Shown here: in pieces, positions 10,891 through 45,677 of the stretch
Layout: every line of letters begins with the position of its first letter
Position numbering within the stretch: the stretch's first letter is position 1
Source: Desulfuromonas sp.
GTDB lineage: Bacteria; Desulfobacterota; Desulfuromonadia; Desulfuromonadales; Geothermobacteraceae
Assembly: GCA_002868905.1 (NCBI GenBank)
Contig: PKUA01000084.1
Coordinates: 1-45,691 of the forward strand
Length of the DNA stretch: 45,691 bases
Direction of reading: 5' to 3'
Notes under the pieces: generated by a model
What the model was told of the DNA's origin: nothing
The model's database searches: none
What the model saw: only the letters and a program-made list of their open reading frames with translations
Made by a program: the position numbers and the translations under genes

Positions 10891-13560
10891 ATGGCTGACG
10901 AAAACAAACTTAATGCCAAAAGAACCCTCAGGGTCGGTGCTGAGAGCTATCAATATTATGCCTTGAAGACGGTGGCCGAAGCGGGTATGGGCGATATCTC
11001 CGCGTTGCCGCTGACGTTGAAGGTCCTGCTTGAAAACCTTCTCCGATTCGAGGACGGGAGCAGTGTCACCCGTGAAGATGTCCAGGCCCTGGTCGATTGG
11101 CAGAAGGAGCGTCGTTCCGATCATGAAATCGCGTTTCGTCCAGCCCGTGTTCTGATGCAGGATTTCACCGGCGTTCCGGCGGTCGTCGACCTGGCGGCCA
11201 TGCGCGATGCCATGGCCCGAGCCGGAGGCGACCCGAGCCGGATCAATCCGCAAATTCCTGTCGATCTGGTGATTGATCATTCGGTCATGGTCGACAAGTA
11301 CGCCATGCCGGAAGCTTTTCAATACAATGTCGACAAGGAGATGGAGCGGAATCGGGAGAGGTACGCTTTCTTGCGTTGGGGACAGGTCGCCTTCGATAAC
11401 TTCCGTGTTGTGCCGCCAGGTACCGGAATTTGTCACCAGGTCAACCTCGAATATCTCGCCAAAACCGTCTGGAGCGAAGAGCGGGACGGAGAACGGTTCG
11501 CCTACCCCGACACCCTGGTCGGAACCGACAGCCACACGACCATGATCAACGGACTGGCTGTTCTCGGTTGGGGAGTCGGCGGGATCGAGGCCGAGGCGGC
11601 AATGCTCGGTCAGCCGGTCTCGATGATCATCCCCGAAGTCGTCGGTTTTCGAATGACCGGTTCCCTGCAGGAAGGTGTGACGGCCACCGACCTGGTCCTG
11701 ACAGTGACCGAAATGCTCCGCAAATATGGCGTCGTCGGTAAATTCGTCGAATTTTTCGGTTCCGGCCTTTCCCGGCTCCCTCTTGCTGACCGGGCCACTA
11801 TCGCAAATATGTCACCTGAGTACGGGGCGACCTGCGGTTGGTTCCCTGTTGATAACGTCACACTTGATTATCTGCGACTCTCCGGGCGGGATGATGACAC
11901 CGTCGCGCTGGTGGAATCTTATGCCAAAGAACAGGGCCTGTGGCGGGAAGACGCAATGGCCGATCCGGCTTACAGCGCGATCCTGGAGCTCGACCTGGCG
12001 ACGGTCAAGCCGAGCCTCGCCGGCCCGAAGCGCCCCCAGGACCGGGTCGAATTGCAGGACCTGGGTACTGCGACGGATAAGGTTGTTCCACAAGGTGAGG
12101 GTGAAAAGCGGGTTCCCGTACAGGGGAGCGACTTTACTTTGGGTCACGGCGATGTCGTCATCGCGGCCATCACCTCCTGTACCAATACCTCGAATCCCGC
12201 CGTCATGATGGGGGCCGGCCTCGTGGCGAAGAAGGCCCTGGAGAAAGGACTCAAGCAGAAACCGTGGGTGAAAACCTCGATGGCCCCAGGGTCGAAGGTC
12301 GTGACCGACTACCTGGAGAAGGCCGGTTTGCAGAGTTGCCTTGACGCGATCGGCTTTAACATCGTCGGTTATGGCTGTACCACCTGCATCGGCAATTCGG
12401 GACCTTTGGTCGGGCCGATCGCCGACGCCATTGCCGAGGGGGATCTCACCGTCTGTTCCGTCCTGTCAGGCAATCGAAACTTTGAAGGGAGGGTCCACTC
12501 CCAAACCAAGGCAAACTGGCTCGCCTCGCCGCCACTTGTGGTTGCGTACGCCCTGGCAGGGACGACCCGTATCGATTTGAGCCGGGAGCCGATCGGCCAG
12601 GGGAAAGACGGCGAGGATATCTATCTGAAGGATGTCTGGCCGAGCAATGCCGAGATCGAGGAGCTGGTCAAGTTGGTTTCTGCCGACATGTTCAGGGAGA
12701 AGTACGCTGACGTTTTCACCGGGGAGGAGAGTTGGCGCAGTTTGCCGATCCCCGAAGGAGAGACCTACGCTTGGGATGAGTCGTCCACCTACGTCAAGGA
12801 ACCGAGTTTTTTCTCGGTGCCGAAAGAGACTCCGAAAGGACTCAACGGCTTTTCCGGCTCCAGCCTGCTTGCCCTGCTCGGCGATTCCATTACCACTGAT
12901 CATATCTCCCCGGCCGGTGCGATCCTGGCCAGCAGCCCGGCAGGAGTCTACCTGCGTGAACGAGGAATATCCCCGGCCGATTTCAACTCTTACGGCTCGC
13001 GCCGCGGCAACCATGAAGTGATGATGCGTGGTACCTTTGCCAATATCCGGTTGAAAAACGAGCTGGTTCCGGGAACCGAAGGTGGTTTCACCAAGTTCCT
13101 CCCGACCGGGGAAGAAATGAGCATTTTCGACGCGGCCATCAAGTATGCCGAGGACGACACCCCCCTGATCATTGTTGCCGGCAAGGAGTACGGAACCGGT
13201 TCAAGCCGGGACTGGGCGGCCAAGGGAACCCTGCTCCTTGGCGTCAGGGCAGTTCTCGCCGAAAGTTATGAGCGGATTCATCGCTCCAATCTTATCGGCA
13301 TGGGAGTCCTGCCGTTGCAGTTCAGGCAGGGGAGTGATCGTAAAACATTGCGACTCGATGGCCGTGAAACCTTTGACCTGCTCGACCCCGAGGACACGCT
13401 GAGACCGGGACAGGAGCTGGTGGTCAGGATTAACCGTTCCAATGGCGACAGTGAGGAGATTGCTGTGACGTGCCGTCTCGATACCGGAAATGAGATTGAG
13501 TATTACCAGAGCGGCGGCATTCTGAATTACGTTTTAGGCAGATTGATGAGTCACACTTGA
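10891..13560 (+). CDS. acnA: Aconitate hydratase A
   Basis: An 889-residue protein of the IRP1/AcnA type, which isomerises citrate to isocitrate via cis-aconitate in the TCA cycle. The three [4Fe-4S] ligands are visible: Cys430 in ITSCTNTSNP, and Cys496 and Cys499 in GYGCTTCIGNSG. Other family motifs include PDTLVGTDSHTTMINGLAVLGWGVGGIEAEAAMLGQP in the N-terminal part, GDSITTDHISPAGAI, and GKEYGTGSSRDWAAKGTLLLGVRAV with the swivelling-domain Ser/Arg residues. Length is normal for AcnA. GGAGG sits six bases before the ATG. The gene is monocistronic, with an extended -10 upstream and a GC-rich hairpin downstream. Confidence 0.97.
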   Translation: MADENKLNAKRTLRVGAESYQYYALKTVAEAGMGDISALPLTLKVLLENLLRFEDGSSVTREDVQALVDWQKERRSDHEIAFRPARVLMQDFTGVPAVVDLAAMRDAMARAGGDPSRINPQIPVDLVIDHSVMVDKYAMPEAFQYNVDKEMERNRERYAFLRWGQVAFDNFRVVPPGTGICHQVNLEYLAKTVWSEERDGERFAYPDTLVGTDSHTTMINGLAVLGWGVGGIEAEAAMLGQPVSMIIPEVVGFRMTGSLQEGVTATDLVLTVTEMLRKYGVVGKFVEFFGSGLSRLPLADRATIANMSPEYGATCGWFPVDNVTLDYLRLSGRDDDTVALVESYAKEQGLWREDAMADPAYSAILELDLATVKPSLAGPKRPQDRVELQDLGTATDKVVPQGEGEKRVPVQGSDFTLGHGDVVIAAITSCTNTSNPAVMMGAGLVAKKALEKGLKQKPWVKTSMAPGSKVVTDYLEKAGLQSCLDAIGFNIVGYGCTTCIGNSGPLVGPIADAIAEGDLTVCSVLSGNRNFEGRVHSQTKANWLASPPLVVAYALAGTTRIDLSREPIGQGKDGEDIYLKDVWPSNAEIEELVKLVSADMFREKYADVFTGEESWRSLPIPEGETYAWDESSTYVKEPSFFSVPKETPKGLNGFSGSSLLALLGDSITTDHISPAGAILASSPAGVYLRERGISPADFNSYGSRRGNHEVMMRGTFANIRLKNELVPGTEGGFTKFLPTGEEMSIFDAAIKYAEDDTPLIIVAGKEYGTGSSRDWAAKGTLLLGVRAVLAESYERIHRSNLIGMGVLPLQFRQGSDRKTLRLDGRETFDLLDPEDTLRPGQELVVRINRSNGDSEEIAVTCRLDTGNEIEYYQSGGILNYVLGRLMSHT

Positions 13561-13611
13561 AGCCTGCGCCTTTTCAAGGCGGGTTCCCTCGAATCTTCTC
13601 AGCGGTTTTGC

Positions 13612-13636
13612 GGCCCCGGATGATAGCTCCGGGGCC
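13612..13636 (+). terminator. GC-rich hairpin downstream of acnA
   Basis: Perfect 9-bp arms GGCCCCGGA and TCCGGGGCC flank a 7-base loop. No T-run follows, so it may be a 3'-end stabilising hairpin rather than a Rho-independent terminator. Confidence 0.45.
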
Positions 13637-13760
13637 GTCGGGAGGGAGTTGGCGGATCAGGAATCCACAATAGAATATTTTTTATTGGACAATCGCATGC
13701 CGCGAACACTATTATTCGATTGTGAATTCAATGACATCGTTTTGTTGCTTTGGGGAGAGT

Positions 13761-14141
13761 ATGTCGAAACGGATTGTGGTTATCGATGACGACCCGGTCG
13801 TGCTGGCCATGGTCAGTGATTATTTGCGGGAAGCCGGCTTTTCCGTCAGTGTCGCAGAGTGTGGAGTCTATTCAAACCACCTGATCTACGGTCGGCAAAA
13901 GCCCGACCTGATCCTTCTCGATGTCATGATGCCGATGATGTCGGGCGACAAGAAAGTCCAGGCGTTGAAAAGGCGGAAGCAGAGTCGTCACATCCCGGTG
14001 GTCCTGATGTCCTCCAAGGAGGAGCTCGAACTCCAGCATTTGACCAAGCAGACCGGAGCCGACGGTTATCTCCGCAAGCCGTTCAGCAGTGATTTCCTGA
14101 TCCAAAAAATAAACACCCATCTCAATCGTAAGGTGAGTTAG
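13761..14141 (+). CDS. Single-domain response regulator (CheY-like receiver)
   Basis: The start ATG 13761 follows GGGGAGAG; the frame also opens at 13722 but without a ribosome site. The 126-residue product is a receiver domain only: an acidic pair in VVIDDDPVV, the phosphoacceptor Asp in DLILLDVMMPMMSG, a switch Ser in VVLMSSKEE, and the invariant Lys in YLRKPF. With no output domain it must act by protein contact or as a phosphorelay intermediate. No kinase is adjacent; the nearest in the window is at 39285. Confidence 0.9.
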   Translation: MSKRIVVIDDDPVVLAMVSDYLREAGFSVSVAECGVYSNHLIYGRQKPDLILLDVMMPMMSGDKKVQALKRRKQSRHIPVVLMSSKEELELQHLTKQTGADGYLRKPFSSDFLIQKINTHLNRKVS

Positions 14142-14513
14142 TTTCCGTCCGGAGACGACCCTTCCTTTGTGGCGGTATCCTTCCTGTGTTCATCCGGAGT
14201 TTCCGGAGGACACCCAATAGGGCCATTCCCACCAATCCGAAAATGAAGTCTTTCTGTCCTGGCCCCTCTGGTCAAGATCGACCAGCCACCTGCATACGCA
14301 GGGCTCTGTTGTCCAATGATCTACCCATGTCGGATAGCCTGGTCCTTTTCGCGCCATGGGATTTTCAGCGATTTGGCCGCCCTGGATGACCTTTCCCGGC
14401 TCAGGACAGGATCGGTGCCAAGAATTGTTTATTCGATACTGGCTTTGCCGAAGTTGCCCACGAAAGAAAAAACCAAAATTTTATAAAGCTATGGAATTGT
14501 TGATCAATTTAAG
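14142..14513. other. Long non-coding gap upstream of a sigma-54 promoter
   Basis: No convincing gene was found; the small open frames here have no ribosome sites or protein-like composition. The last 60 bases become AT-rich. Since a sigma-54 promoter follows at 14514, this stretch is the natural place for activator binding sites 80-200 bases upstream, but no clear repeat could be identified by eye. Confidence 0.5.
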
Positions 14514-14530
14514 TTGGCCCGTACCTTGCC
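14514..14530 (+). promoter_or_regulatory. Sigma-54 (RpoN) promoter of the first DUF4382 gene
   Basis: TTGGCCCGTACCTTGCC matches the sigma-54 consensus TTGGCACG-N4-TTGC, with GG (14516-14517) and GC (14528-14529) separated by exactly 10 bases. The expected start is near 14541, about 107 bases before the gene. Such promoters need an enhancer-binding AAA+ activator. Confidence 0.82.
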
Positions 14531-14647
14531 TTATGACTTGGACATGATCAAGACACTGTTCGGCTTCTAAATCACGGACCAGATGCAAAGAGGATTTGGC
14601 TCGGTTCTGATGCCTTAGTTGATTAAACAAAAGAAGGGAGAAAAGAA

Positions 14648-16159
14648 ATGTTGATGCGAAGAGGGTTAGTGTGGTGGTTACTTATGGTTGCTTGTACTCT
14701 TTTGTTCGGGTGTGGCGGTGGTGGTGGCGGTTCCCAGACGGGTGATACCGGGAACCTGCAGGTCGCTTTGACTGATGCACAGAATCCGGACATGTCAGAG
14801 CTGGTTGTCTCGATTCTCGAGATTCGGGCCATACCTTTTGTTGAAGAGGTCTCTGAAGAAGTCGCTGAGGAAGTCGTTCCAGAGCAGGAAGCAGCCGCCG
14901 ATGAAGAGGAGGAATGGATTGTCCTGGCAACTTTCGATCCTCCGGTGCAGATCAACGTGCTCGACCTGGCGTATCAGCAGGAATTGCTTGCCGATGTGGA
15001 CGTGCCTTTGGGTGACTACGAGCAGGTCCGCCTGGTTCTCGAGGAAAACCCGGTTGATGGTGAGCCGGTCAACTACATTGTGTTTACCGAAGATATTGAA
15101 ACCATGGTGCCGGTTGTGACTCCGAGTGGCCAGGAGTCGGGGCTGAAAATTAACGGGGATTATTCGGTTGAAGAGGATGGCTCAACGGTGGTTGTGCTTG
15201 ACTTCGACCCGAACCGGGCCATCCATCAGAACGGTTCCGGGGACTGGATTTTCAGACCGACCGGTATTCGCCTGGTTGAAAGTCAGGAAGTGCTCTCCGA
15301 ATATGGTGGGTTGTTCGGTCACGTGTTGCAGGAAGTAACCGATCCTGCCACTGCAGAGACGACGACCAAGCCGCTGGTCGGTGCCCTGGTTGAAGTCACT
15401 GACCCGGAAACCGGTGAGGTGCTTGCGTCCACGATCGTCAATCCGGATGATGGCAGTTACCGGGTGTTCCTCCCCAACGGATTTTACGCCGTGACTATCA
15501 CGGCTGACGGGATGTTACCGTTCGAATCGATGCCGCAGGTTTTTGAGATCGTCGAAGGTGAAGAGACTGTTGTCGTCAGTGTTGTGCTGAATCCCGATCC
15601 GGCTGCGGTTGCTGATGAAGAAGTAATTCCCGAAGAGGAGCCGGGAGTCGAAGAGCCGCAAGTTGAGGAGCCTCCCGTCGAGGAACCCCAGGACGAAGAG
15701 GCCCTGCCAGCCCAGGTCCGGTTCTGGTTGGCCGATACCGACGGTCCGGAGATCCCGGGTGGTTTCGTGTCGGTCTCCTCGGTTGACGTTCACACCCCGG
15801 GCGGCTGGGTTAATGTCTTTTCCGGCGAACTCTCACTGGAAATCGGCGCCTTGCCGGCCGAAGAGGCGATGCTGCTTGGCGAAATGACCCTGCCGAGCGG
15901 CAAGTACACGCAGATCCGCATCGGAATCGCCGAAGCCGTCATCATTGGTGAGGAGGAAGATATTGATGTCAAGGTGCCGAGCGGCACGGTCAAGTTGAAC
16001 CGCAACATCGATATCTGTTCCGGTGGCGAAGCGGATATCGTCATCGACCTCGGCGCCGGGAAGTCCCTATCCCATAACGCCAAAAAGAACACCTACCGGA
16101 TGCAGCCCGTGCCATCGCTGGTGGAGACCACGGTTGTCTGCCCGGAATCTGGCGAATAG
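14648..16159 (+). CDS. Lipoprotein with two DUF4382 domains and a carboxypeptidase-regulatory-like domain
   Basis: A 503-residue protein preceded by AAGGGAG. The N-terminus is a lipoprotein signal (basic RRG, hydrophobic core, lipobox LLFGC) followed by a Gly-rich spacer. The first DUF4382 domain runs from GNLQVALTDA through LLADVDVPLGDYEQVRLVL to FRPTGIRLV and contains an acidic insertion (EEVSEEVAEEVVPEQ). Next comes a beta-sandwich like carboxypeptidase regulatory domains (PLVGALVEVTDPETGEV, DGSYRVFLPNG, YAVTITADG), a Pro/Glu-rich linker (EEPQVEEPPVEEP), and a second DUF4382-like domain (VRFWLADTDGPE to GKYTQIRIGI). It is predicted to be anchored in the outer or inner membrane. Function is unknown. 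It is expressed from a sigma-54 promoter and ends at a strong terminator. Confidence 0.82.
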   Translation: MLMRRGLVWWLLMVACTLLFGCGGGGGGSQTGDTGNLQVALTDAQNPDMSELVVSILEIRAIPFVEEVSEEVAEEVVPEQEAAADEEEEWIVLATFDPPVQINVLDLAYQQELLADVDVPLGDYEQVRLVLEENPVDGEPVNYIVFTEDIETMVPVVTPSGQESGLKINGDYSVEEDGSTVVVLDFDPNRAIHQNGSGDWIFRPTGIRLVESQEVLSEYGGLFGHVLQEVTDPATAETTTKPLVGALVEVTDPETGEVLASTIVNPDDGSYRVFLPNGFYAVTITADGMLPFESMPQVFEIVEGEETVVVSVVLNPDPAAVADEEVIPEEEPGVEEPQVEEPPVEEPQDEEALPAQVRFWLADTDGPEIPGGFVSVSSVDVHTPGGWVNVFSGELSLEIGALPAEEAMLLGEMTLPSGKYTQIRIGIAEAVIIGEEEDIDVKVPSGTVKLNRNIDICSGGEADIVIDLGAGKSLSHNAKKNTYRMQPVPSLVETTVVCPESGE

Positions 16160-16195
16160 TATTGCCCTTCCAACGAACTTCAAAGGATGACCTTT

Positions 16196-16228
16196 CACTC
16201 CCGGCGTTTCGCCGGGAGTGTTTTTTTT
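16196..16228 (+). terminator. Rho-independent terminator after the first DUF4382 gene
   Basis: Perfect 10-bp arms CACTCCCGGC and GCCGGGAGTG with a GTTTC loop are followed by eight T residues. Confidence 0.95.
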
Positions 16229-16420
16229 GGCTGGTATGTTTTCTCCGGCAGTTTCTTTTTTTCATTGTGCCTTAAATTGTCTCTGTTTGCGCCGGTCATG
16301 CTTGTCGAGCCTGGCCGTTATGCATGCCAATTATTGTCCCATGCCATCTGTATTTGCCGTAATTGCATGTTTGTCTAGCTCGGGAGATCGCATAACTACC
16401 TGTTTTTATATAAAGATTAT
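16229..16420. other. Non-coding spacer between the two DUF4382 units
   Basis: No gene was found between the terminator at 16228 and the sigma-54 promoter at 16421 (the full non-coding gap is 16160-16549). It may hold activator sites for the downstream promoter; no repeat shared with 14142-14513 could be recognised with confidence. Confidence 0.45.
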
Positions 16421-16437
16421 TTGGCTCGACCTTTGCT
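16421..16437 (+). promoter_or_regulatory. Sigma-54 (RpoN) promoter of the second DUF4382 gene
   Basis: TTGGCTCGACCTTTGCT is a near-perfect sigma-54 site: GG at 16423-16424 and GC at 16435-16436 are exactly 10 bases apart. The predicted start near 16448 leaves a leader of about 102 bases, very similar to that of the first paralogue. Confidence 0.87.
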
Positions 16438-16549
16438 GTTTGAAATGGTTATGGCATTAGCAGAGCCCGTCGATAAATCATGAATCGTAAGAGAAGAGGT
16501 GAGCCATGAGAGCATGGTCAACTCGAAATATCGGGAAGGGAGAAAGATC

Positions 16550-17461
16550 ATGTTAAGTCGCGCAGGTTTGATGAGGTGTTTGGTGTTTATCAGTTGCAGC
16601 TTGTTGCTCGTATGTTTTGGTGCCGTATCGCAGGTTAGCGGGAGCGGCAACGGCAACTCGAAGAAAATGGCAGATACTCAACAACCTGAGGTGGCCGAGA
16701 TTGTGGTGACGATTCGCGAAATTCGTGCAATTTCGACAAACGGAGATCAATTCATTTCTTTGGCGAGTTTTTCCCCCGCTAAGCAGCTCAACGTGCTTGA
16801 CCTTGAATTTGCGCAGGAGTTGCTGGCCGACGTGCAGATTCCCCTGGGAGACTATGAGCAGATCCGCCTGGTTCTCGGAGAAAATTCCGACGACGGTGAG
16901 CCGGCTAACTATCTGGTATTTGCAGACGATCCAGAAACAAGGGTGCCGGTTGACACCCCGAGTGGACAAAAGTCAGGGTTGAAAATAGAAGGCGAATTCT
17001 CGGTTGGTATCAACGATTCCACTGTGGTCGTGCTCGAAATTGATTCAAATCGGGTTATCCATCAGACCGGGGCAGGCGATTGGATTCTTCGGCCGACTGG
17101 AATTCGATTGGTTCAAACCGAGGTTGTCTTGCCTGAAACCGAAGATCCCCTGCCAGGATATGGTCGTTTGTTTGGGTATGTGTATCAGGAATCGACCACC
17201 GGATCCTCCTCGGAACCGATGGTCGGCGCGTTGGTCGAGGCCATGGATCTGGCGACCTATCAAATCGTGGCCGAGACAACTGTAAACCCGGGCGATGGGA
17301 GTTACCAACTTTCCCTTCCTGACGGCAGTTACGCCTTGAGGATCACGGCCGATGGGATGGTGACTGCTTATCCTTCGCCGATGTTCTTTTTTGTACTTGA
17401 AGGAGTGCAGATCCTGGTGGGCAGTGAAATCATGACCTCTGACTCCGCAACGACTTTTTGA
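16550..17461 (+). CDS. Exported DUF4382 protein, shorter paralogue
   Basis: The start ATG 16550 follows AAGGGAG at 8 bases, matching the layout of the first paralogue; a frame from GTG 16499 lacks a signal peptide at its end. The 303-residue product aligns with the upstream protein over most of its length (ELLADVQIPLGDYEQIRLVL, TPSGQKSGLKIEGEFSV, GDWILRPTGIRLVQ, then a regulatory-like domain with DGSYQLSLPDGSYALRITADGM). It lacks the acidic insertion, the Pro/Glu linker and the second DUF4382 domain. Its signal sequence (SCSLLLVCFGAVS) has no good lipobox and may be cleaved after AVS, so it may be soluble rather than lipid-anchored. Function unknown. Confidence 0.8.
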   Translation: MLSRAGLMRCLVFISCSLLLVCFGAVSQVSGSGNGNSKKMADTQQPEVAEIVVTIREIRAISTNGDQFISLASFSPAKQLNVLDLEFAQELLADVQIPLGDYEQIRLVLGENSDDGEPANYLVFADDPETRVPVDTPSGQKSGLKIEGEFSVGINDSTVVVLEIDSNRVIHQTGAGDWILRPTGIRLVQTEVVLPETEDPLPGYGRLFGYVYQESTTGSSSEPMVGALVEAMDLATYQIVAETTVNPGDGSYQLSLPDGSYALRITADGMVTAYPSPMFFFVLEGVQILVGSEIMTSDSATTF

Positions 17462-17522
17462 GTGGTCGTAAAGGGAACGGATTGAAGCCAATCTCGTTTT
17501 CGAACAAATAGGTACAGTTTTT

Positions 17523-17553
17523 GACTCCCGGGTTTTCTCGGGAGTCTTTTTTT
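17523..17553 (+). terminator. Rho-independent terminator after the second DUF4382 gene
   Basis: Arms GACTCCCG and CGGGAGTC flank an 8-base loop and are followed by seven T residues. The stem resembles the terminator of the first paralogue, as expected if the whole unit was duplicated. Confidence 0.92.
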
Positions 17554-17667
17554 GGGTTGAAACGGGAGGAGAATTTTTTTGGCCGCAATCCTGCGGTTTA
17601 GAAACTCAATCAGACGATATCAGCCAAAGGTGCCTGCAACTTCATTCTGTCAGATTAAATTCCAAGG

Positions 17668-18156
17668 TTATTCCCATAGACCAATCCGTTTTTCCCGCGC
17701 CTCTTTTTCTGTCTGTAGAAATTCCCGGCGTCGGCTGAAATCGTAACGCCTGAACACGGTCGCTAACCCCATCTCTATCAGCAAGCGATTCAGCATCCGG
17801 CCGTCCGGCAAATAGAGATAGGCCAGCAATCGGTCATAGGGGTCACGATTCCCCTTATCGTACTCAATTGTGACCTTCTTTCCTTTAAGAGCTTGTTGAT
17901 TGAACTGGCGGGCCTGACGATGGATGGCACGCAGTCGTCGGGGGGGAATATGCCAGCGCTGATAAAATTTGTCCCGGTTGGAGTCCTCACGTTCCGGGGT
18001 GTCGATACCGAGCAGACGCAGTTTGCCAAGGGTTTCAATCTCGACCGTGTCGCCATCGAAAATGCGGGTTACAGTTCCACTGAAAGTTTCGGCATGACCT
18101 GCCGACACGAGGAACAGTAGCAGCAGGGTGAGAATGAAACCAGGTCGAGAAATCAA
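17668..18156 (-). CDS. Secreted thermonuclease-like (SNase) protein
   Basis: The chosen start is TTG 18156, which overlaps the stop of the upstream membrane-protein gene (TTGA) and sits just after GGGGAAGGA; the frame extends further upstream but inside that gene. The 162-residue product has a signal peptide (FILTLLLLFLVSAGHA, cleavage after HA) and a staphylococcal nuclease domain: GTVTRIFDGDTVEIETLGKLRLLGIDTPERED with Asp, Arg and Glu catalytic positions, then RDPYDRLLAYLYLPDGRMLNRLLIEMGLA with the second catalytic Arg. It would cut DNA or RNA in a Ca2+-dependent manner outside the cytoplasm. Start choice is uncertain because spacing to the ribosome site is short. Confidence 0.82.
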   Translation of the reverse strand: MISRPGFILTLLLLFLVSAGHAETFSGTVTRIFDGDTVEIETLGKLRLLGIDTPEREDSNRDKFYQRWHIPPRRLRAIHRQARQFNQQALKGKKVTIEYDKGNRDPYDRLLAYLYLPDGRMLNRLLIEMGLATVFRRYDFSRRREFLQTEKEAREKRIGLWE

Positions 18157-18578
18157 TTCCTTCCCCAGAGCAAACGGGTGAAAAACCCGGTGAATAAGCC
18201 CCAAACGAGATTCAGGGCGAAGATCAGCAGAGGTGTCATCCTGCCGAGGCCGAGGCCGAACATTCCGTGGGATGTCAGGTGGGGGAAAACCAGGAACAAC
18301 TGAACGGCTGTCGGCAGGAGACTGACCCAAAGCCCTTTTCTGACCCAACGTTGCCTTGATCGGGGGCGACCGACGGTAAAATAATAGGCAAGCCCCCAGA
18401 TTCCGCCCCAGACGAGCTGTGGGTAGAGCCAGGCGCTGTTCCAGTCCGGTTTCATCAAGACTTGCAGCATGTCGCTGATGCCGAAATGACCGGCGAGCCA
18501 GGCGGCACCGGCATGGGCGAGACCGCCGAGCAATCCGGCAGTGAACGATACGGCGAGTAAGGCACCTCCGCGATTCAT
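18153..18578 (-). CDS. Small integral membrane protein of unknown function
   Basis: A 141-residue protein with about four hydrophobic segments (ALLAVSFTAGLLGGLAHAGAAWLAG, LYPQLVWGGIWGLAYYFTV, GLWVSLLPTAVQLFLVF, LLIFALNLVWGLFTGFFTRLLW) separated by short polar loops, one of them very basic (GRPRSRQRWVRKG). ATG 18578 is preceded by AGGGAGG. I do not recognise the family with certainty. It is translationally coupled to the SNase gene through a TTGA overlap, so the two are co-expressed; a functional link is only suggested. Confidence 0.72.
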   Translation of the reverse strand: MNRGGALLAVSFTAGLLGGLAHAGAAWLAGHFGISDMLQVLMKPDWNSAWLYPQLVWGGIWGLAYYFTVGRPRSRQRWVRKGLWVSLLPTAVQLFLVFPHLTSHGMFGLGLGRMTPLLIFALNLVWGLFTGFFTRLLWGRN

Positions 18579-41455: not shown

Positions 41456-43597
41456 CTACTTGAGAGATTCTGCCAGCAGTTCGATGGTGTGTTTGACGCG
41501 CACCTTCGAACCGGTTTTGTCGAGGCCTCCGGCGAGCTGCAGCAGGCAGCCGGGGCAATCCATGGCAACGCAGGCGGCCTCGGTTTGTTTGATGTCGTTG
41601 AGTTTGTCTTCCAGGATCCGCCGGGCGATGTCCGGATGACTCGAGAATGAATAGCTCCCGCCGAAGCCGCAGCAGCGGTCGGCGTGTTCCATCTCGACCA
41701 GTTCGTGTCCGCTCTGGGTCAGCAGTTGCCGCGGCTCCTGCCAGACGCCGGCGCCCCGCTTCAGGTGGCAGGAGTCATGGTAGGTGACTTTCTCAGTCAC
41801 CTTGCCGAAGGTCCCCTCCTCCGGTTGCAGGACGTTACTGATGAAGCCGGCGACGTCGATGGTCTTCTCCGCCAGCAGTTCGGCTTTGGCGGCCCAGACC
41901 GGGTTGTCTTTCAGGTGCTCGACGAAATCGCGTTGCAGCGCCATGGTGCAGGTCGGGCAGGTGGTGACGACGTAATCCGGTGCGTCTTCGAGCATGGCGG
42001 CGACATTCTGGCGGGCGAGTTCCACCGCCGTCTCGCTGTCGCCGGAGTAGAGGGCCGGGACGCCGCAGCAGTTCTGCTTCTGCGGGAAGGTGACTTTCAC
42101 GTCGAGCCGGTTCAGTACCTTGACCAGGTCTTCTCCCATTTCCGGGTAGACGAAGTCATTGAGGCAGCCGGCGTAGAAGGCGACGGTGTAACGTGGTTTT
42201 TCGACCTGCTGCGGGATGTCCTTCCAGAGGTCGCGCAGCGGCTTCTCGGCGACTGCCGGCAGAGAGCGCCACTCGGTCAGCGACGAGAAGAACAGGGGGA
42301 GATGGCGGATGGTTCGTTCCCCCCTGGTCACAGGTTTCTGCAGTTTGCTCGCCGCCCGCAGCAGCGAATGGAACAGGGCGCGGTTACGCAGTACCTTGCG
42401 GAACACCAGCGACTTGCCGGTGCCGATCCCTTCCTCCTCGCCGATGGTCTCCCGCAGGTGCAGGATGATGCTCTCCAGGTCGATACCGGAGGGGCAGACT
42501 TCGACGCAGGCACGGCAGCCGATGCAGGCGCGGACGATTTCGGTGGCTTTGTCGAGGCCGTGGAAGAAAGCGGTGAGGATGATGCCGATGGCGCCGATGT
42601 AGACATGGCCGAAGACATGGCCGCCGACCGTCTGGTAGACCGGGCAGACGTTGGCGCAGGCGCCGCACTTGATACAGCGCAGGGCGTCCTTGCAGCGCTC
42701 TGACTTGGCCAGGGCGCTCCTGCCGTTGTCGAGCAGCACGATGTGCAGTTCCTTCTCCTCGTCGCCGCAGGGGACCGCACCGCGAATCCAGGTGATGTAA
42801 CTGGTGATCGCCTGGCCGGTGGCGTTTTTCGGCAGGGTCTTGATGATGGTCGCGGCATCCTCCAGGGTCGGCACCAGCTTTTCGGTCCCGACCAGGGCGA
42901 CATGGATTTTCGGCAGGGTGGTGCAGAGCCGGGCGTTCCCTTCGTTGGTGACCAAGGCGAGTCCGCCGGTCTCGGCGATTGCCATGTTGGCGCCGCTGAT
43001 CCCCATGTCGGCGTCGAGATATCCCTGGCGCAACTGTTCGCGGGCGACCCGGACCAGGTGCTCGATCTCGGATGGCTCGGTTTTTCCGGTCACCTTGCTG
43101 AACAGGTCGGCGACCTCTTCCTTGAACATGTGGATGGCCGGCATCACCATGTGGCTCGGCCGTTGACCCGCAAGCTGGATGATCCATTCGCCGAGGTCGG
43201 TCTCCAGGGGCTTGATGCCGGCCTTCTCCAGTGCCTGGTTGAGATGAATTTCCTCGCTCGCCATGCTCTTGCTCTTAGCAACAAGTTTCACCCCGCGCTG
43301 TTGCGCCAGGTCGGTGATGTAACGATTGGCGTCGTCGGCGTCTTTCGCCAGGAAGACGGTGGCGCCGGCCGCCGTGGCGTTCTCGATGAACTGGTCGAGG
43401 TAATGCTGGCGGTTTTCCAGGATCTTGTTCTTGGCGGCGGCGATAGCGGTCCGCAGCGCCTCGAAATCGTAGTCGGCAAAGGCCTTCGCGCGCGCGGCGA
43501 CGAAAGCGTCGCCGAATTTGTGCAATGCCTCCTGCAGCTTCGGCGTCGCCAGGGCTTGGTCGATTCTCTGCTTGTATTCCCGGGTCCGTTGTTTCAT
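41456..43597 (-). CDS. Fused LldF-LldE (LutB-LutA) lactate dehydrogenase iron-sulfur subunit
   Basis: Start ATG 43597 (MKQRTREYKQ) follows GGAGA and lies one base after the lldG stop (TGATATG); 713 residues. The N-terminal 460 residues are LldF/LutB: GISGANMAIAETGGLALVTNEGNARL, then two ferredoxin motifs CIKCGACANVCPVY (near residue 306) and CIGCRACVEVCPSG (near 359). From about residue 470 the protein is LldE/LutA: VAFYAGCLNDFVYPEMG, QNCCGVPALYSGD, TTCPTC, DSCHLKRG and DRCCGFGGSYS, the double CCG motifs that bind a non-cubane [4Fe-4S] cluster. It passes electrons from L-lactate oxidation onward. In many bacteria LldE and LldF are separate proteins. Confidence 0.92.
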   Translation of the reverse strand: MKQRTREYKQRIDQALATPKLQEALHKFGDAFVAARAKAFADYDFEALRTAIAAAKNKILENRQHYLDQFIENATAAGATVFLAKDADDANRYITDLAQQRGVKLVAKSKSMASEEIHLNQALEKAGIKPLETDLGEWIIQLAGQRPSHMVMPAIHMFKEEVADLFSKVTGKTEPSEIEHLVRVAREQLRQGYLDADMGISGANMAIAETGGLALVTNEGNARLCTTLPKIHVALVGTEKLVPTLEDAATIIKTLPKNATGQAITSYITWIRGAVPCGDEEKELHIVLLDNGRSALAKSERCKDALRCIKCGACANVCPVYQTVGGHVFGHVYIGAIGIILTAFFHGLDKATEIVRACIGCRACVEVCPSGIDLESIILHLRETIGEEEGIGTGKSLVFRKVLRNRALFHSLLRAASKLQKPVTRGERTIRHLPLFFSSLTEWRSLPAVAEKPLRDLWKDIPQQVEKPRYTVAFYAGCLNDFVYPEMGEDLVKVLNRLDVKVTFPQKQNCCGVPALYSGDSETAVELARQNVAAMLEDAPDYVVTTCPTCTMALQRDFVEHLKDNPVWAAKAELLAEKTIDVAGFISNVLQPEEGTFGKVTEKVTYHDSCHLKRGAGVWQEPRQLLTQSGHELVEMEHADRCCGFGGSYSFSSHPDIARRILEDKLNDIKQTEAACVAMDCPGCLLQLAGGLDKTGSKVRVKHTIELLAESLK

Positions 43598-43598
43598 A

Positions 43599-44162
43599 TC
43601 AATTCTCCAGCGGGTCGTCAGACAGACCATCCAGCAGCAGGATGTGCAGTTCGCGCGGTCCGTGGACGCCTATTGTCAGCACCCGCTCGATGTCGGCGGT
43701 CCGTGACGGGCCGGTCAGGTAGGCGAGAAAGTTGCGCGGCTGCTCCTGGTGGAAACGGCGCAGCAGGGGGACGGCGTCATCGCCGTCGTCAATGATCTTG
43801 GACGGGTCGAGCAGCACAAAATGTTTTTCCGGCAGGGTGCTGGCAAGGCGGGTCGCCTCGGGAGTGCTCTCCAGAACCACGCTGCCGGTTTCGGCAATAG
43901 CGAAGTTGGCTCCGGTGACTCCGGCTGACGCCTGCGCCGCCTTGGTGCGGAACTCGTCCTGAATCAGCTCCGAATCGTGCTTGGCCAGTTCGTTGGCCAG
44001 CCCGAGTCGTTCGAGGGACGAGGAGGGGGGAAGGATGATGGCCCCTGCAACGTGCTCGGATATGTAGGTCGCGGCCTCGGCAGCATCGGTGAGGCTGGCA
44101 ACAACGGCACCAACAGCATTTGCCGCAGTGGAAAATCGCTCGATGTTTTTTTTGTTTGGCAT
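43599..44162 (-). CDS. lldG: Lactate utilization protein LldG/LutC
   Basis: Start ATG 44162 (MPNKKNIERF) is preceded by GGAGAG; a longer frame to 44192 would run through the operator. The 187-residue product is of the LutC/LldG family (DUF162): VTGANFAIAETGSVVLES, ASTLPEKHFVLLDPSKIIDD, and the C-terminal TGPSRTADIERVLTIGVHGPRELHILLLD. It is the third component of the LldEFG L-lactate dehydrogenase complex. It is translated in coupling with the fused lldFE gene. Confidence 0.92.
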   Translation of the reverse strand: MPNKKNIERFSTAANAVGAVVASLTDAAEAATYISEHVAGAIILPPSSSLERLGLANELAKHDSELIQDEFRTKAAQASAGVTGANFAIAETGSVVLESTPEATRLASTLPEKHFVLLDPSKIIDDGDDAVPLLRRFHQEQPRNFLAYLTGPSRTADIERVLTIGVHGPRELHILLLDGLSDDPLEN

Positions 44163-44237: not shown

Positions 44238-45677
44238 TTATTTGAGTGGGATCTGGTATTTGACCAGTTTCTTATACAATACCGTTCTATGGATGCCGAG
44301 CAACCTGGCGGCCGCTACTTTGTTGTTCCCGGTCAAGTCCAGAGCCTTGCGCAGGGCTTCCCTTTCAGCCTCGGCCATCACCTCGCTCAGGTTCCAGGTT
44401 CCCCCGCTCGAGGTGTTCCCCGTTGATCGATTGAGGTAGAACGGAAGGTCGCAGGCCTCGATCACGTTCCCTTCAACGGTGAATGCAGTCCGTTCCAGAA
44501 CATTGAGCAGTTCGCGGACGTTTCCCGGCCATGGGCTGTCGAACAGCACTTTTTCGGCGCTCGGCGTCAATTCGTAGCGTGCGCCGGGATAACGCTCGGC
44601 GATTTTGTCGAGCAGTTGCCAGGCAATTGGGATGATGTCCTGGCGCCGTTCCCGCAGTGCCGGTACTGCCAGAGACGCTACATTGAGACGGTAATAGAGA
44701 TCTTCCCGGAATGATTTCTGCTGTACCATCTGCAGCAGGTCGCGGTTGGTCGCGGCGATGATGCGGAAATCGCTCCGTATCAATTTGGTGCCGCCGACCC
44801 GCTCAAACATCTTGTCTTCGAGAACGCGCAGCAGCTTCGGTTGCAACTCCAACGGCATTTCCCCGATTTCGTCCAAAAACAGAGTTCCCCCGTTTGCCAG
44901 TTCCAGCTTGCCGGGTTTGCCCCCCGGATGTGCTCCGGTAAAGGCACCTTTGGCGTAGCCGAACAGCTCCGACTCAAACAACTCTTTTGGGATCGCGGCA
45001 CAGTTGAGATGAATCGATGGATTCTCGCGGCGGCTGCTTGCCTGGTGGATCGCCTGGGCGAAAAGCTCTTTGCCGGTTCCCGATTCGCCGGTGATCAGGA
45101 CCGGAAGATCGGTTGCGGCTGCTTTGATCGCTTCTTCCTTGAGCGCGACAATTTCGGGGCTCGTGCCGATGATGCTGTCGAAGGAGTAGCGTCGTTCTCT
45201 CAGTGTGGCGAGTTCCTGCTGGTAGAGTTGAAGTTTCGATTCGAGCAGGCTCAGGTTGCTGGCGAGTTTGCCGACGTCGCTGACATGCTTGAACATCAGC
45301 TGTCCGAAGACGGCGACCACTTTGCCGTCCTCGAGAATCGGGATGCGCTGGACCACCATGTCCCGCCCCTTGGCGGTGAACAATTCGTTAACCTCGGCCC
45401 GGCCGGTTTTGGCGACAATATGCATCCGGCTGTTGTCGAGAACATCGGTGACATGTTTGCCGATCATTGCTTCGGCGTCGACCCCCAGGAAGCGGGCGTA
45501 GGGGCGGTTGAAGTAGAGGATGATACCGTCAGCATCGGTGACGATGGCGCCGTTTTCGATGTGGTCGAAGATCAGGTTGGCCATGTTGAGCTGCTTGGTA
45601 AGGCCCTGAATCAGCTCTGGCAGGTTCTTTGCCGGCATCGGTTGCGGGGTCGCAGGGTCCTGCGGATATGGACTCAT
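44238..45677 (-). CDS. PAS-domain sigma-54-dependent transcriptional activator
   Basis: A 479-residue enhancer-binding protein. An N-terminal PAS domain (LIFDHIENGAIVTDADGIILYFNRPYARFLGVDAEAMIGKHVTDVL) is linked by a coiled segment (LLESKLQLYQQELATLRERR) to an AAA+ domain: Walker A LITGESGTGKELFA, the sigma-54 contact loop GAFTGA in YAKGAFTGAHPGG, Walker B GTLFLDEIGEMP, sensor ATNRDL, and SWPGNVREL-like SPWPGNVRELLN. A Fis-type helix-turn-helix closes the protein (ALDLTGNNKVAAARLLGIHRTVLYKKLVKY). TGGAG precedes the ATG. It is upstream of lldG on the same strand and may regulate lactate genes, or the sigma-54 DUF4382 genes. Confidence 0.94.
   Translation of the reverse strand: MSPYPQDPATPQPMPAKNLPELIQGLTKQLNMANLIFDHIENGAIVTDADGIILYFNRPYARFLGVDAEAMIGKHVTDVLDNSRMHIVAKTGRAEVNELFTAKGRDMVVQRIPILEDGKVVAVFGQLMFKHVSDVGKLASNLSLLESKLQLYQQELATLRERRYSFDSIIGTSPEIVALKEEAIKAAATDLPVLITGESGTGKELFAQAIHQASSRRENPSIHLNCAAIPKELFESELFGYAKGAFTGAHPGGKPGKLELANGGTLFLDEIGEMPLELQPKLLRVLEDKMFERVGGTKLIRSDFRIIAATNRDLLQMVQQKSFREDLYYRLNVASLAVPALRERRQDIIPIAWQLLDKIAERYPGARYELTPSAEKVLFDSPWPGNVRELLNVLERTAFTVEGNVIEACDLPFYLNRSTGNTSSGGTWNLSEVMAEAEREALRKALDLTGNNKVAAARLLGIHRTVLYKKLVKYQIPLK

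Follow-up and report, generated by a model that had tools for sequence, protein, structure and literature searches.

There is a strong probability that the two neighboring DUF4382 genes of this Desulfuromonas sp. form a duplicated sigma-54 unit whose exported products serve an attached or particle-associated lifestyle, the corresponding gene of relatives in the rest of the class being usually controlled by GEMM-I riboswitches of the A20 (cGAMP) type. The pair lies in a window (the whole stretch of DNA analyzed) of 45,691 nt, taken from a genome of 3.30 Mb in 84 contigs that is 99.98% complete. Its features are:

14416-14456, + strand: candidate activator region of gene 1, blocks TGCCAAN2ATTGT and TTTGCCGNANTTG, weak
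14514-14530, + strand: gene 1 promoter of the sigma-54 -24/-12 type, 17-mer TTGGCCCGTACCTTGCC, with the exact consensus core TGGCCCGTACCTTGC at 14515-14529
14541-14647, + strand: predicted leader of gene 1, GEMM-I riboswitch not found
14648-16159, + strand: gene 1, 503 aa, ATG at 14648; signal peptide with lipobox (LFGC), DUF4382, CarboxypepD_reg-like domain, acidic linker, second DUF4382
16196-16228, + strand: terminator-like element of gene 1, a hairpin (16196-16220) followed by a run of 8 T
16325-16365, + strand: candidate activator region of gene 2, the same blocks TGCCAAN2ATTGT and TTTGCCGNANTTG, weak
16421-16437, + strand: gene 2 promoter of the sigma-54 type, 17-mer TTGGCTCGACCTTTGCT, with the exact consensus core TGGCTCGACCTTTGC at 16422-16436
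16448-16549, + strand: predicted leader of gene 2, riboswitch not found
16550-17461, + strand: gene 2, 303 aa, ATG at 16550; signal peptide (Cys22, weak lipobox LLVC), DUF4382, CarboxypepD_reg/CnaB-like domain
17523-17553, + strand: terminator-like element of gene 2, a hairpin (17523-17546) followed by a run of 7 T

These are the only DUF4382 genes of the host genome (three domain matches), and the domain was not found in four other genomes of the same family. Profile searches placed PF14321 well above its gathering score of 25 both in gene 1 (4e-44, 150.6 bits) and in gene 2 (3e-21, 76.5 bits); the CarboxypepD_reg match that follows DUF4382 in both proteins is weaker and below the Pfam cut-off, and neither gene had an NCBIfam match above cut-off. 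The architecture of gene 1, with its second DUF4382, is also present in a relative from the same order (L038). By eye, LFGC is a good fit to a lipobox, and the product of gene 1 is very likely a lipoprotein. The signal peptide of gene 2 retains Cys22, with V at -1 by eye, and this cysteine is invariant in alignment A4. The predicted model of gene 2 has a mean pLDDT of 79.9 and is similar, over its C-terminal part, to domains of the CnaB and carboxypeptidase-regulatory kinds (Foldseek 8bdw_A, TMt 0.68). Fold matches of gene 2 are dominated by this C-terminal domain and not by DUF4382, those from VIA falling mostly on residues 199-302 (best Z 11.8). The CnaB/carboxypeptidase-regulatory fold is common to many surface proteins and shows no function by itself. 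The two products would be cell-surface or periplasmic beta-sandwich proteins, presumably exposed at the surface.

An earlier note on this DNA had described promoter, gene and terminator as a duplicated unit, and this description is supported. The proteins are 53% identical and are sisters in the tree (support 100/100). The leaders, measured from a predicted +1 (12 bases past the GC element) to the ATG, are indeed 107 and 102 bases long, with promoter-to-ATG distances of 117 and 112 bases; a strong terminator-like hairpin of its own lies 3' of each gene, and ACTCCCGG...CGGGAGT is common to both. The weak upstream blocks also point the same way. The pair is most simply explained as a one-gene unit that was duplicated in tandem. 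The range given previously for the unit, 14514-16437, needs correction, since it ends at the second promoter; gene 2 extends to 17461 and its terminator to 17553.

Both promoter sites are of the sigma-54 type, as had been proposed, with GG and GC 10 bases apart and exact matches to TGGCNCG-N4-TTGC. There is no other exact TGGCNCGN4TTGC match in the window, and with up to two mismatches 47 matches were found vs. 60.8 expected, which is no excess. The exact motif is not enriched in the genome as a whole, because both strands together hold eight matches vs. nine for the pattern read backward as a control, and of the six matches elsewhere in the genome three fall within likely coding frames (on contigs C1, C45, and C78). 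This lack of enrichment favors a reading in which the sites arose by chance and ordinary sigma-70 promoters drive both genes. Against it, a genome-wide motif search, as the earlier note had suggested, found that two of the eight exact sites precede the only two DUF4382 genes of the genome. The chance of an exact site in any one 280-bp upstream region is 3.4e-4, or about 1e-7 for both genes. In a simple scan of 13500-18200, sigma-70-like sites on the + strand stopped at 13715, though weak ones may lie farther on, and the site is shared by four of the five other genes of the same subfamily in the order (see below). We therefore regard chance matches with sigma-70 transcription as very unlikely.

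Within the window's order, taken to be Desulfuromonadales, 41 of 136 genomes carry DUF4382, with 47 domain matches that correspond to 45 genes; two further DUF4382 genes (G007 and G021:C399) stand outside these counts. The sigma-54 scan covered 40 genes including the window's two, G093 and G123 (weak) and L048, L051, and L053 (no usable start) being excluded; for L012, where an ATG start was not found, an assumed start was used. When each 280-bp upstream region was compared with shuffles of itself, 14 of the 40 genes had a site at p<=0.05 on the coding strand, vs. 2 of 40 on the reverse strand. The genes closest to those of the window (subfamily A2) are L027, L029, L031, L032, and L038. With the window's two, six of these seven order subfamily genes are preceded by a site scoring at least 12, where 0.012 would be expected per region (binomial 2e-11), and without the window's own genes the count is four of five (about 1e-7 by hand); the score matrix was our own and the thresholds were set after the scores had been seen. 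The RpoN consensus published for Geobacter sulfurreducens, TTGGCACGGTTTTTGCT (PMC2725144), applied with GG and GC required, picked out the same six of seven when at least 11 of the 17 letters had to agree (p 5e-8), and three of seven at 12 or more letters (p 6e-5). It is this recurrence of the site before relatives that argues for sigma-54 control of both genes. Judged from sequence alone, they would depend on RpoN, which the host genome encodes. Among the other DUF4382 types of the order, 4 of 33 genes (L014, L025, L028, and L033) had a site scoring at least 12 (p 6e-4).

The one order subfamily gene without a sigma-54 site, L032, lies 114 nt behind another gene that, on a longer record, is headed by a riboswitch (L055 4675-4754; RF03168, 66.2 bits vs. 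a cut-off of 65.9; E 2e-5 with model R1), and may be co-transcribed with it. This aptamer has G, not A, at the position compared below. Apart from L032, an Rfam scan of all 41 order loci (L012-L053; L041, the rpoN locus, is not among them) found no riboswitch directly upstream of a DUF4382 gene. A same-strand riboswitch lies farther off in L050, about 1.26 kb upstream, and the one in L020 is divergent.

Outside the order, the picture is different. The DUF4382 subfamily is common elsewhere in the class (families f23-f25, probably Geobacterales), where 63 loci were compared after exclusion of 11 remote hits (E above 1e-8) and of L126, a repeat of L076. A c-di-GMP-I (GEMM-I) riboswitch, RF01051, lies upstream on the same strand in 48 of the 63; the loci are not independent, two genera contributing 18 and 14 of the 63, and L118 and L124 (cut at the gene start), L123 (partial match), and L125 (remote type) are counted as misses. 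By genus, 14 of the 17 examined have a riboswitch-preceded subfamily gene. In 32 loci the aptamer lies 56-93 nt before the chosen start codon; the distance is 133 nt in a single locus and 385-439 nt in the other 15, all of one genus. All 48 aptamers have A at the compared position; it precedes a two-base helix close to the 5' end of the aptamer, and from the Rfam alignment and the numbering of Vc2 we take it to be nucleotide 20.

Sigma-54 sites are rare there. A score of at least 12 was reached in 5 of the 61 loci with upstream sequence (L118 and L124 have none), vs. 6 of 7 in the order (Fisher, 3e-5); the first 24 outside loci gave two sites at p<=0.05 vs. one on the reverse strand, and the published consensus at 11 or more letters matched 6 of 61 (p 0.05, not significant). 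L074 and L094 have no riboswitch and a sigma-54-like site scoring 11.9 and 16.1, respectively, and nine full loci have neither device. In four loci (L082, L087, L093, and L102), a sigma-54-like site is followed by a GEMM-I aptamer and then the DUF4382 gene, with 121, 57, 56, and 52 nt, respectively, between site and aptamer. In eight (L078, L084, L090, L092, L095, L096, L105, and L106), a second GEMM-I riboswitch lies 483-534 nt past the DUF4382 gene, and in L090 a gene for a Ysc84-domain protein stands behind it.

In the tree, which leaves out L118, L122, L123, L124, and L125, the order's sigma-54 genes form a poorly resolved grade outside a clade that contains the riboswitch genes. Sigma-54 control is thus possibly older and the riboswitch a later gain; the reverse is also possible, as the root and the long branches are unsure.

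The riboswitches of relatives give an indication of what the protein may do. In Geobacter, replacing A20 by G turns a GEMM-I riboswitch from cGAMP to c-di-GMP, GacA-made cGAMP matters for growth on Fe(III) particles, and such riboswitches have been tied to that growth, as has been reported (PMC6456294). Because the gene of relatives in the rest of the class is usually under an A20 (cGAMP) GEMM-I riboswitch, the protein most likely serves an attached or particle-associated lifestyle. This suggests that it is part of the switch between free-swimming and surface-attached states, and it may have a role in attachment. The earlier idea of a regulated surface structure is plausible.

Such riboswitches are not foreign to the host genome, which has 16 c-di-GMP-I matches, all but one of them above the cut-off; A occupies the compared position in 11 and G in 5, and none lies in the window. 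One of them belongs to a unit at G000:C8:4716-4822 (L006, L158) in which a sigma-54 17-mer of exact consensus is followed, after 16 nt, by the riboswitch and a histidine kinase gene; the aptamer (C8:4716-4790) is of the G type. This unit, together with the four outside loci with site, aptamer and gene in that order, gives some ground for supposing that a diverged GEMM-I riboswitch is hidden in the two leaders, sigma-54 starting the transcript and a cyclic dinucleotide deciding its fate. The leaders themselves speak against it: neither matched a GEMM-I riboswitch with Rfam at E values up to 10, neither matched, with filters off, a model built from the DUF4382 gene's own riboswitches, and neither folds better than its shuffles. 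Of the explanations weighed here, we consider a concealed riboswitch the least probable, at a shade below even the sigma-70 reading. Our preferred reading remains that the window's two genes are controlled by sigma-54 at initiation.

The activator was sought upstream of the promoters. A motif search, also proposed earlier, brought out two short blocks that recur at nearly equal distance, lying 98 and 70 bases ahead of the 17-mer in gene 1 and 96 and 68 in gene 2; the likeness is weak (the best shared 45-mer is 27/45 identical, equalled in 2% of 60 shuffles). The blocks could be activator sites or leftovers of the duplication. None of the four remaining subfamily loci with a sigma-54-type site (L027, L029, L031, and L038) has them (best 2-5 mismatches), so they give no sign of a common activator. 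A repeat search found nothing common to both upstream regions; it returned an imperfect AT-rich palindrome at 14473-14494 and the gene 1 terminator. By eye, a perfect dyad, CTGGTC-N6-GACCAG, lies at 14268-14285, about 230 bases before promoter 1, and was not seen upstream of gene 2.

There is no activator gene adjacent to the pair. Between an aconitase gene and gene 1, at 13758-14141, lies a stand-alone CheY-like response regulator, in which a receiver domain alone was found, so that it would not act as a sigma-54 activator on its own. A single activator gene was found in the window (44238-45677; PAS, AAA+, and Fis-type HTH domains); it is near a gene for a LUD/Fe-S protein (41456-43630), and we claim no link to the pair because it is 27 kb away. 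An activator with a FleQ domain (PF06490) had no match in the host genome, which may yet encode other activators that bind cyclic dinucleotides. The genome has 25 Sigma54_activat matches, 22 of them strong. NtrC- and DctD-like activators are common among sigma-54 systems, and with so many activators to choose from the pair might be under nitrogen or carboxylate control through one of this kind, its proteins being unrelated to attachment. The riboswitch link of relatives points instead to cyclic-dinucleotide physiology, and although rewiring is conceivable, we hold nitrogen or carboxylate control to be unlikely and favor the link to attachment.

Under sigma-54 control, RNA polymerase would wait in the closed state at each -24/-12 site until an AAA+ activator, bound perhaps 70-100 bp upstream of each promoter, fires. 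If both promoters are gated by one activator signal, both exported proteins would be made together, and their expression would be joint and tightly gated. In relatives, a cyclic-dinucleotide riboswitch would gate the same gene once transcription has begun, or the two devices would act together. One could go further and regard sigma-54 and the riboswitch as interchangeable inputs to one surface lipoprotein family, between which the gene has been handed over repeatedly, with an activator that itself answers to a cyclic dinucleotide or to surface contact, the same signal being kept; we think this improbable. These observations give a regulatory handle on DUF4382, a family of unknown function, and a testable prediction of its function in surface or particle attachment and extracellular electron transfer. 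They also offer a natural case in which a riboswitch is replaced by, or layered with, an activator-dependent promoter.

Sigma-54 promoters, GEMM-I riboswitches, and DUF4382 are each known already; the apparent novelty lies in the duplicated sigma-54 unit and in a single gene family whose control alternates. Titles and the opening parts of abstracts of the papers found on sigma-54, riboswitches and c-di-GMP hold nothing on a DUF4382 gene, and such a gene is likewise absent from those of the listed matches on GEMM-Ib and lipoproteins and on Geobacter cyclic AMP-GMP riboswitches. Geobacter GEMM-I riboswitches were reportedly described by Kellenberger et al. and Nelson et al. in 2015, where the orthologue may be listed as a hypothetical protein. 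For DUF4382 itself, the literature found comes to one table row, that of Haloferax HVO_1030 (PMC8241124). Going by that row, HVO_1030 is like the window's proteins an exported DUF4382 (PF14321) protein with a lipobox, whereas the latter add a CarboxypepD_reg/CnaB-like domain and, in gene 1, a second DUF4382.

Among regulatory systems, the closest parallel on the promoter side is the RpoN regulon of G. sulfurreducens, which has the same -24/-12 element as the window, controls pili, flagella, and other exterior functions, and includes hypothetical proteins, with no DUF4382 gene named in the parts consulted (PMC2725144). More broadly, sigma-54 has been portrayed as a controller of the bacterial exterior, its promoters being associated with lipoproteins and exterior functions as here, in a general survey whose abstract does not mention the DUF4382 family (PMC3162934). 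On the riboswitch side, the comparison is with the GEMM-Ib (cGAMP) regulon of Geobacter (PMC6456294, PMC8835794): outside the order the DUF4382 orthologue usually lies behind an A20 aptamer, whereas in the window each copy has a sigma-54 promoter and no riboswitch was detected.
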